Shown piece by piece: positions 45,569 to 48,190 of a DNA stretch of 64,000 nt. The position numbers were made by a program, and so were the translations under genes. Under the pieces are notes generated by a model. That model saw only the letters and a program-made list of their open reading frames with translations. It searched no databases and was not told where the DNA came from. Each line of letters starts with the position of its first letter. The stretch's first letter is position 1. The stretch comes from Fluviicola sp. (GTDB lineage: Bacteria; Bacteroidota; Bacteroidia; Flavobacteriales_D; Crocinitomicaceae): positions 1 through 64,000 of the forward strand of contig NVXU02000023.1 in NCBI GenBank assembly GCA_002734065.2. Reading direction: 5' to 3'.

Positions 45569-46456
45569 TTATTTCAAATTCAATTCTGTTAAAATCTCTA
45601 TCTTATTATCTGAGTTCTTATCCTTCAACACTGCAATCAATTGATAAGGGTTATTTTTCGTTCCACTTCTAAATGTCAAAATCACTGGAATCTGTCCATC
45701 CTTAAAGTCTTTAGGATTGACTCCACTTCTTTCAATATTACTGAGTATGTTCGGGTCGGATATTATCTTATTCCCGTTTCTGTCACTCATTTCAATAGAA
45801 AGTATAGGAAAAATTAGGTTGTCTTTCATTTCAAGACCCTCAACACCCTCAATAATGAGAATTAGGGTGTCATTGCTGTTCACTTGACCATTAATAACCG
45901 TTTTTTTGGTGCTTTCATTCCACAAGTATATTCTTGAGTAATCAATGCTGGTAGAATTGACTTTCAATAAATCATTATTCTCAACAGTGAATGGCAGTTC
46001 GTAGGTTAAGACACCATCTCCGCGTTGATCTTTAATGGTGATGTGCATTTTGTAACTTTCACCATTCTCATTCGGAAGTGCTACTACAAAATAAGCTGTC
46101 AATCGCAAAGGCGAAAGCGTTGTACCTTGATTTAAGTTATTCAACAAATTAGGTCTGTTTAAAACGGTGTCTTTCTCATTCTTCATCACTACCATTGATA
46201 AGGTTGGGTAGCTTTTTCCGTCTTCAATAGTCAAACCTCTAACGTTATTAAAAACAAAAGTGATTTCTTCCCCATAGGTGAAAGTATTGGTGTTTTTCAC
46301 TTCTTCGTTTACTTTTATTATTACGTCATTGCAACTAATTCCATCACCTCTGGTATAGGCGCCTGTACTTAAATCTTTATTCACAGATTGGTTAAATTGG
46401 CACGAGCCAAAAATCAGCGAAACAATTATAACTGTGATAAATGAGCGTAAATTCAT
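45569..46456 (-). CDS. Lipoprotein with two similar domains, function unknown
   Basis: 295 aa from ATG 46454-46456 (MNLRSFITVIIVSLIFGSC): a lipoprotein signal with lipobox FGSC. The mature region contains a duplication: GEEITFVFNNVRGLTIEDGKSYPTLSMVV...NRPNLLNNLNQG matches NDTLILIIEGVEGLEMKDNLIFPILSIEM...SDPNILSNIERSG. Each half is probably a beta sandwich. No family is recognised. It follows dnaX on the same strand after 10 bp and may be cotranscribed. Confidence 0.75.
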   Translation of the reverse strand: MNLRSFITVIIVSLIFGSCQFNQSVNKDLSTGAYTRGDGISCNDVIIKVNEEVKNTNTFTYGEEITFVFNNVRGLTIEDGKSYPTLSMVVMKNEKDTVLNRPNLLNNLNQGTTLSPLRLTAYFVVALPNENGESYKMHITIKDQRGDGVLTYELPFTVENNDLLKVNSTSIDYSRIYLWNESTKKTVINGQVNSNDTLILIIEGVEGLEMKDNLIFPILSIEMSDRNGNKIISDPNILSNIERSGVNPKDFKDGQIPVILTFRSGTKNNPYQLIAVLKDKNSDNKIEILTELNLK

Positions 46457-46466
46457 AGTGGTTGTG

Positions 46467-47081
46467 TTAAAATTCAATGTCTAAATTAAACAAAGTTTTC
46501 AAAGAGTGTAAATTTGGGTTTTTCCTTGCCAAAGCAGCAAAACGATCTTTTCCCGTTTGGAACTTCACTTCTTCCTCAGGGTTTGTGGTCAGCACCAGCT
46601 CAAAACTAACGTCGTAATTTTTCAGTTCTTTTCGAATATATTCGACCATTTCAGAAAGCATTGGTCGGATGTAATCAATTTGAGATTGACCATCCACTTC
46701 GAGAAGGTACAGGTCATCTTCCTTAAATTTAGGTTCTCTTTTAATCAGTGCATTATAAAAAGTAAGCTTTCCTTTGTCCTTCATGGAGAATGCAAAGCGG
46801 CGCCACAACATTTTCAAGTCGTCGATGTCGTAATCATTACGTGGCATGTTGCTTAAATCACGACTGAGTCCTTCATCATCCTCCTTTTTCTCCATCATTT
46901 TTTTGATAGAAAGGTTAGACGTTTTGAGTGTCCCAGAGGGTGCTTTTAGAACTTTAGGCGCTTCTTTTTCTGTTACTTTGTTGTAAGAGGGTTTAATTTT
47001 AGGCTTAACCGTCGCTTTTTTTGCAGACTTCCTTAAATTTTGATTGGTAAACGGAATAATCTTAACTGGATCCGTTAGGAG
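46467..47081 (-). CDS. dnaX: DnaX tau-specific C-terminal region, in the -1 frame
   Basis: 205 codons (204 aa and stop) that continue dnaX only after a -1 shift. Downstream of the A10 tract this frame has no stop and reads LLTDPVKIIPFTNQNLRK, then a Lys/Pro-rich linker and the tau C-terminus (DDLKMLWRRFAFSMKDKGK...ELVLTTNPEEEVKF...KNPNLHSLKTLFNLDIEF), which in Bacteroidota DnaX contacts the polymerase alpha subunit. The first ATG of the frame is at 46898, with no promoter or good start context, so a separate gene is unlikely. Joined to the zero-frame part it gives about 574 aa, the usual size of full-length DnaX. Confidence 0.85.
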   Translation of the reverse strand, partial: LLTDPVKIIPFTNQNLRKSAKKATVKPKIKPSYNKVTEKEAPKVLKAPSGTLKTSNLSIKKMMEKKEDDEGLSRDLSNMPRNDYDIDDLKMLWRRFAFSMKDKGKLTFYNALIKREPKFKEDDLYLLEVDGQSQIDYIRPMLSEMVEYIRKELKNYDVSFELVLTTNPEEEVKFQTGKDRFAALARKNPNLHSLKTLFNLDIEF

Positions 47082-48190
47082 TTTTTTTTTTCGAGCTCCT
47101 GATTAATGGAACACAACTGCATCAACGCCATTTCGACCAGCAGTCGTTGATTTTTTGAGGCTTTGTAATCGACATCAGCTTTACTCAAAACGCCAAGCGC
47201 TCTAAGAATGTGAGAACCTTCCAATTCTTTCGATTGTTCGATGTATTTTTTCTCAATGCTCTCGCTAACCTCCAGTAATGGCGCCGTTCTCACGTCTTTG
47301 CAAACCAATAAACTTCTGTAGTGCTCTGCCAAGCCTACCAAGAAGTTATGCGCATCGAATCCTTTTTCTATGATGTCATTGAGCAACAATAAAGCCGCTG
47401 GAATATCTTCTTTCTGTGTGCTTTCAATAATTCTGAAATAATAATCGTAATCAAGAATATTGAGGTTTTCAATCACGTTTTCGTAACTGATAGAATCTCC
47501 GGAAAAAGTAACAATTTGATCAAAAATCGACAAGGCATCTCTTAATGCACCGTCTGCTTTTTGCGCAATGATGTGCAAAGCGTTTTCATCGGCAGTTATT
47601 CCTTCTTCTTTGGCAACAAAGGCCAAATGTTTGGCAATATCCACTACTTTAATTCTGTTAAAATCAAATATCTGACATCTGGAAAGAATAGTCGGGATAA
47701 TTTTATGCTTCTCTGTCGTTGCCAATATAAAAATGGCATGTTTTGGAGGTTCTTCAAGCGTCTTCAAAAATGCGTTAAAAGCACTGGAAGAAAGCATGTG
47801 AACCTCATCAATGATATACACTTTATACGTACCTAACTGAGGTCCAACTCTGACTTGGTCAATTAAACTCCGTATATCTTCTACCGAATTATTAGAGGCA
47901 CCATCCAACTCAAAAACATTGAGAGAGCTACCAGTATTAAAAGATTCACAAGAATCACATTTGTTACAAGCTTCTATTTTTTCTGTTCTGTTCGAACAAT
48001 TAATTGTTTTCGCTAAAATTCTGGCAGTGGTCGTTTTCCCAACCCCTCTTGAGCCACAGAATAAAAATGCTTGCGCAAGATGATCGTTTTTAATAGCATT
48101 CTTCAAGGTAGCCGTTATCGACTTTTGTCCAACTACGGTGTCAAAAGTTTGCGGTCTATATTTTCTTGCCGATACTACAAAATCACTCAT
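47075..48190 (-). CDS. dnaX: DNA polymerase III gamma-like product of dnaX (zero frame)
   Basis: Clamp-loader ATPase. 371 aa, ending right after the oligomerisation domain. Walker A GSRGVGKTTTARIL, zinc site CNKCDSC with the preceding Cys, DEVHMLSS Walker B, sensor 1 ILATTEKHKIIPTILSRCQ, sensor 2 GALRDALSIFD. This is domains I-III, equal to E. coli gamma. Translation ends at LEKKNS because of a TAA just after ten adenines (47082-47091). The tau part lies in the -1 frame. Start: ATG at 48190, with GTG one codon earlier; a -7 element lies 5 nt before. Confidence 0.93.
   Translation of the reverse strand: MSDFVVSARKYRPQTFDTVVGQKSITATLKNAIKNDHLAQAFLFCGSRGVGKTTTARILAKTINCSNRTEKIEACNKCDSCESFNTGSSLNVFELDGASNNSVEDIRSLIDQVRVGPQLGTYKVYIIDEVHMLSSSAFNAFLKTLEEPPKHAIFILATTEKHKIIPTILSRCQIFDFNRIKVVDIAKHLAFVAKEEGITADENALHIIAQKADGALRDALSIFDQIVTFSGDSISYENVIENLNILDYDYYFRIIESTQKEDIPAALLLLNDIIEKGFDAHNFLVGLAEHYRSLLVCKDVRTAPLLEVSESIEKKYIEQSKELEGSHILRALGVLSKADVDYKASKNQRLLVEMALMQLCSINQELEKKNS
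47079..47100 (-). promoter_or_regulatory. dnaX recoding site: A10 tract with AGGAG upstream
   Basis: On the coding strand AGGAG-CTCG-A10-CTCCT. A10 gives a place for RNA polymerase slippage, and its end with the next base is the heptamer A AAA AAC in the right phase for tandem -1 slippage. AGGAG sits just upstream like the stimulator in E. coli dnaX, and AGGAG/CTCCT can pair around the tract. The zero-frame TAA is 6 nt further. A homopolymer error of one base would give the same picture. Confidence 0.75.

Follow-up and report, generated by a model that had tools for sequence, protein, structure and literature searches.

A conserved adenine tract at the gamma/tau junction of dnaX in Fluviicola sp. 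and other Bacteroidota: a probable site of transcriptional slippage

The dnaX locus

The window analysed here, a stretch of 64,000 nucleotides of the genome of Fluviicola sp., carries on its minus strand a dnaX gene that is divided between two reading frames. The zero frame (47078..48190) begins with an ATG at 48190 and encodes a gamma-like product of 371 aa, ended by a TAA (47075..47077). This protein (P0001) scored 445 bits against TIGR02397 (cut-off 250), indicating that the N-terminal ATPase domains of gamma/tau are present, and matched the Pfam families PF13177, PF22608 and PF12169, which correspond to the clamp-loader ATPase, the lid and domain III. Shortly before the stop lies a run of ten adenines (A10, 47082..47091), the proposed slippage site, which is found as A10 or A11 at the equivalent codon and in the same phase in relatives of the genus. 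The zero-frame codons at the tract are GAA AAA AAA AAC TCC TAA, so that A_AAA_AAC stands in phase; the tract is followed by CTCC and then by TAA, which leaves 4 nt between tract and stop, not the six given in an earlier note on this DNA. The -1 frame (46470..47090) stays open for 204 codons past the tract, up to a stop at 46467-46469, and encodes the tau-specific C-terminal part; the two non-tau frames close 1 and 5 codons past the tract. AGGAG (47096..47100) upstream of the tract and CTCCT (47077..47081) downstream of it are, like the in-phase heptamer, present as the earlier note had described them.

The tail encoded in the -1 frame (P0002) matched positions 430-613 of NF011531 (E 5.6e-18) and thus contains the tau-specific part, the 65 bits obtained for this piece alone being below the cut-off set for the whole protein; the Pfam search gave no match for it. 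Reading frames and profile matches therefore bear out the earlier assignment of a 371-aa gamma to the zero frame and of a tau C-terminus of 204 codons to the -1 frame. Gamma domain III and the tau tail gave one match each in the genome of the organism itself (3.49 Mb in 62 contigs), where a search for a second copy of the tail found none; P0001 also gave weaker partial matches elsewhere in this genome, presumably to other AAA+ proteins. Comparison of the window with 12 relatives of the same genus gave 725, 508 and 1377 differences at codon positions 1, 2 and 3 of the -1 tail; because of this pattern, that of a tail evolving as protein, the possibility that the frame is open by chance was rejected. 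An ORF of 302 aa, possibly encoding a lipoprotein, is located at 45569-46477 on the minus strand; with TTG as its start, it would share sequence with the end of the tau frame.

Twenty distinct runs of at least ten As (grouped from 30 matches) were found in the genome of the organism, and among these the dnaX A10 alone is in contact with two open stretches that each exceed 150 codons. Five other A10 runs (L138, L139, L141, L146 and L152, in C10, C12, C21, C31 and C45) are located, in the sense orientation, within open frames some 200 to 800 codons long. Provided that these five frames are genes, slippage of the polymerase on A10 should give rise to shifted products from them as well.

The tract and the frame of tau in relatives

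The genus of the window comprises 34 genomes with dnaX, and 27 loci were compared (L002-L025, L032-L034); among the seven genomes outside this set, four (G041, G043, G046, G048) have frames of 374-413 codons, two (G003, G047) have dnaX cut short, and in G042 it is in two pieces with stops inside. All 27 loci carry the tract at the identical codon and phase, as A10 in 22 cases and as A11 in five, and in 26 of them the zero frame stops right past the tract and the longest frame beyond it is -1. In L024 (A11) the whole of dnaX is open, with tau in the zero frame, and in L005 the -1 tail ends after only 71 codons. The other four A11 loci, which have the break, retain unchanged spacing to the stop; therefore, their run was lengthened by substitution and not by insertion. 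A further member of the same family, L035, has A11, i.e. one extra A, and a single open frame, with a tail of 56% identity. The family of the window, coded f1, also contains a record named Crocinitomicaceae (L054).

For the phylum, 333 loci were collected in all; 31 come from the genome of the window itself (L001, L131-L160) and were not counted. From the 302 others, 13 duplicates and six loci missed by the motif were dropped, giving 283 distinct loci, and later parsing of the six, which are absent from the tree described below, brought the number to 289. Among the 283 loci, 238 had a run of A9-A13 near the end of the gamma domain, 28 had neither run nor break, and 17 had the break without the run. 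The run was A10 in 197 of the 238, A9 in 20, A11 in 19, and A12 and A13 in one each; the six loci parsed later all had A9 or A10 with tau in -1. An A9-A13 run is thus present in 244 of the 289 loci, most often as A10 (200 of 244). It occurs in 66 of 80 titled records, and in 44 of 60 loci picked across the phylum; outside the class of the window it was found in 21 of 36 of those and is therefore far from universal there. The titled records with a run have tau in the zero frame in Hymenobacter, Pedobacter, Mucilaginibacter, Aequorivita, Flagellimonas, Aquimarina and Dyadobacter, and in -1 in Cesiribacteraceae and Sunxiuqinia; several Bacteroidales records (L087, L096, L105, L113, L127) have no run. 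In L108 and L129, titled as Bacteroidales MAGs, the zero frame stops near the end of gamma with no A run, which represents either an error or another layout. Two further titles look mislabelled, the dnaX of these records being like that of the window's family: the 600-nt dnaX core of L052 (Chryseobacterium gleum MAG) is identical to that of L049 of family f1, and the dnaX of L055 (Chitinophaga pinensis MAG) is 80% identical to the window protein.

The state counts are not frequencies, since family f1 was densely sampled and the 60 phylum loci were hand-picked for spread from 146 matching genomes, with truncated frames somewhat over-represented. The order search matched 277 of 299 genomes; among the matches listed, all f1 genomes but G172 are covered, and the others partly. 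In the even draw from the phylum, the dnaX frame is just 364-462 codons long in 45 of the 146 genomes that matched (that of G411 is at a contig end), and recoding may explain such truncated gene calls. Chance occurrence of the A run was considered and rejected: in the 335,066 nt of 199 tract-bearing genes, no run of at least ten As was found elsewhere, and there were four runs of nine. AAA makes up 0.724 of the lysine codons in the N part, and two or three consecutive AAA are not rare (0.53 and 0.38). Lysine codon use alone was accordingly set aside as support, and the argument rests on the conservation of the whole run, its partial codons included.

The frame of tau, taken as the longest open frame past the tract, is -1 in 154 of the 244 tract loci, zero in 80 and +1 in 10 (148, 80 and 10 in the set of 238); in L093, L114, L207 and L218 this frame reaches the contig end at fewer than 100 codons and the state is provisional. 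On a tree of 282 loci, at least 26 changes of the tau frame were counted among tract-bearing genes, a number that weak branches may inflate, as the tree was a quick one made from 282 gamma domains with the tract columns removed and without a mixture model (L102, at a contig end and one of the 28 loci with neither run nor break, was excluded); on a previous tree, of 222 rows, 18 changes had been counted. Twenty shuffles of the labels gave 69-80 changes, and the tau frame is therefore inherited but often changing. Independently of any tree, all three frames occur within families f1, f9 and f17, whereas f10 and f26 each show two. Nearly all members of f1 are -1, so that the direction is not wholly free in this family. 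One of the +1 cases comes from a genome in a single contig (L258, G026), and ten of ten +1 tails are homologous to the window tail (z 15-41). Among tails of at least 150 codons, 213 of 232 reach z 5 against the window tail; for the 19 below this value, 14 of them from other classes, homology is not shown thereby. A change of one A flips the frame among near relatives, as in L213 (A9, +1, amid -1 congeners) and L035 (A11, zero frame), although each of these two cases rests on a single assembly. A stop closes each of the two non-tau frames within six codons in 185 of 199 loci and, in the larger set, in 218 of 238; among positions in the tails of the 199 loci, the corresponding share is 15.7%. 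Thus, whichever frame holds tau, reading in either of the others almost always terminates gamma immediately.

Transcriptional slippage and its alternatives

A tract that stays constant while the frame behind it varies, with no conserved ribosomal stimulator, points to transcriptional slippage, as in Thermus dnaX. With a probability of about 0.8, judged from the sequences, the dnaX gene of the window makes both clamp-loader subunits by programmed slippage of this kind. RNA polymerase, with an RNA:DNA hybrid of 9-10 bp, would realign on A10 and produce mRNAs with differing numbers of As. Those with 10 (or 13) As would encode the 371-aa gamma, and those with 11 (or 8) As would encode tau, of about 574 aa by arithmetic; mRNAs with 9 or 12 As would give another product of gamma length, since a stop codon closes the +1 frame after 5 codons. 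A hybrid of 9-10 bp is the length given for the Thermus polymerase in the sections of PMC5009743 that were consulted. Slippage predicts a run about as long as the hybrid, indifference to direction and stops in the other frames, which matches the pattern found for dnaX. The excerpts of PMC3711429 likewise treat variable direction at one site as the criterion for transcriptional realignment, and constant direction as that for ribosomal shifting. The earlier proposal of programmed recoding at A10, with gamma as the unshifted product and tau as the shifted one, is supported by these comparisons.

The strongest competitor, which we nevertheless regard as unlikely, is that transcription is faithful and tau is made by ribosomal -1 frameshifting at A_AAA_AAC or by sliding of the ribosome on oligo-A. 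The window has the in-phase heptamer and the AGGAG upstream, -1 is by far the commonest state of tau in family f1, and dnaX of E. coli is described as using -1 frameshifting at A_AAA_AAG (PMC3711429 and PMC5009743, in the parts used). However, the ten +1 and 80 zero-frame members among the tract loci, and the close stops that guard both non-tau frames, speak against it. The heptamer, which the earlier note had offered as a signal, is not conserved as such, the base after the run being unconstrained (G in 81, C in 59 and T in 59 of 199 loci). Nor did the suggested pairing of AGGAG with CTCCT hold as a conserved feature: AGGAG within 18 nt upstream was found in 38 of 199 tract loci, CTCCT within 12 nt downstream in eight and both in seven, and the helix showed no covariation in 30 sequences. 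The consensus fold of the same number of sequences, reaching 75 nt past the tract, contained no helix downstream of it and just a stem of 4 pairs upstream of the run (-2.1 kcal/mol). Ribosomes of Bacteroidia are, moreover, reported to be unable to recognise Shine-Dalgarno sequences (PMC9976891, as excerpted). Since A10 always contains a slippery A_AAA_AAN, some of the -1 product could also come from slipping of the ribosome on these As, alongside transcriptional slippage.

Some loci keep the break without the tract. In 15 loci of family f1 (genera g18, g24, g25 and g30; L232, L236, L237, L239, L240-L244, L254, L323, L324, L328, L329 and L333) the break is in roughly the same position and tau is again in -1, but no run there exceeds seven As. 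Nine of the 15 have ATCTTAAG in common over the zero-frame stop, L240 and L242 contain the E. coli heptamer A_AAA_AAG, and L232, L254 and L329 have an ATG or GTG at the stop. In six (L236, L237, L239, L254, L324, L328) the overlap contains no -1 re-pairing site (Z_ZZN), so ordinary ribosomal -1 shifting cannot explain all of these loci, and a search for re-initiation codons found no ATG, GTG or TTG in the overlap and the next 31 nt in six (L236, L241-L244, L328). Another way to make tau, or to do without it, therefore exists, and these loci may have moved to a different mode of recoding, may use re-initiation or may carry a split gene.

These 15 loci, three of them with a start codon at the stop, are also what favours a fixed frameshift in the window, by which only gamma would be made and the tau tail would be separate or unused. 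We consider this very improbable, given that the tail is under protein-level constraint in the tract-bearing relatives of the genus, that the run itself is kept among relatives, and that L035 of the same family has the same tail in one open frame. A homopolymer error of sequencing or assembly, with the true dnaX in one frame, has a practically negligible chance: homopolymers are error-prone, and the single members that differ by one A (L213, L024, L035) could themselves be errors, but the same break in 26 of 27 genus genomes, the four broken A11 members that differ by substitution and the one-contig genomes G026, G133, G139 and G163, which show the break (G133 without the tract), mean that error is ruled out by independent relatives for the group, and the reservation made in the earlier note is narrowed to this one copy.

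Known dnaX systems and the meaning of the tract

Genes of two ORFs are already on record for dnaX: Antonov et al. 2013 (PMC3711429, excerpts) list 17 of them in 12 genera, nine of the genes having 10 As where the two ORFs meet, and propose realignment. As in these genes, the zero frame of the window dnaX encodes gamma and its -1 frame tau, and the A10 matches the run of the nine. The need for recoding to obtain tau was thus published in 2013, and the layout of the window gene is itself already known in kind; the reversed arrangement, short product unshifted and tau shifted, which the earlier note contrasted with E. coli and Thermus, is found in that paper and was reviewed in 2016 in PMC5009743, which, in the portion used, states that one nucleotide can reverse the roles of gamma and tau. 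The difference is that, in the available part of that paper, all 17 genes are -1 and just three green sulfur bacteria, with shorter runs, are named, whereas here zero, -1 and +1 frames flank the same tract phylum-wide.

With dnaX of Thermus thermophilus (A9; PMC1088944 and PMC5009743, both in part) the window gene shares an A run of at least nine, close stops in the non-tau frames and the derivation of both gamma and tau from a single gene. The frame of tau differs, being zero in Thermus and -1 in the window, although the Thermus layout is that of the 80 zero-frame tract loci. E. coli dnaX similarly has two products and a shift at an A-rich site where the gamma part ends; there, as far as the sources used describe it, the shift gives the short product by means of A_AAA_AAG, a Shine-Dalgarno sequence and a stem-loop, whereas in the window the short product is that of the zero frame and the heptamer is A_AAA_AAC. 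The tract loci tested here do not conserve any of the E. coli signals. In Blochmannia endosymbionts, poly(A) frameshifts, dnaX included, are described in the excerpted text of PMC3017870 as possibly restored to frame by transcriptional slippage. A search of titles and abstracts of the open-licence literature did not find a Bacteroidota-wide dnaX tract, +1 members, drift of the frame or a broken subclade without the tract.

For the phylum as a whole, we lean, by a narrow margin over even odds, towards an old slippage switch in dnaX that is nearly frame-blind: A10 would stay while tau drifts over three frames, and some lineages would later have lost the tract, with gamma and the tail of tau retained in ORFs that overlap. 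Such a switch, if real, requires a polymerase that spreads transcripts almost evenly over the three frames; how even the slippage has to be is a question for which the drifting frame of tau offers a natural experiment. Whether it matters that both forms of DnaX are made can be tested in the tract-less subclade. Tau connects the polymerase to the helicase in the replisome, and its production here seems to depend on an 'error' of RNA polymerase that has been kept across much of the phylum.
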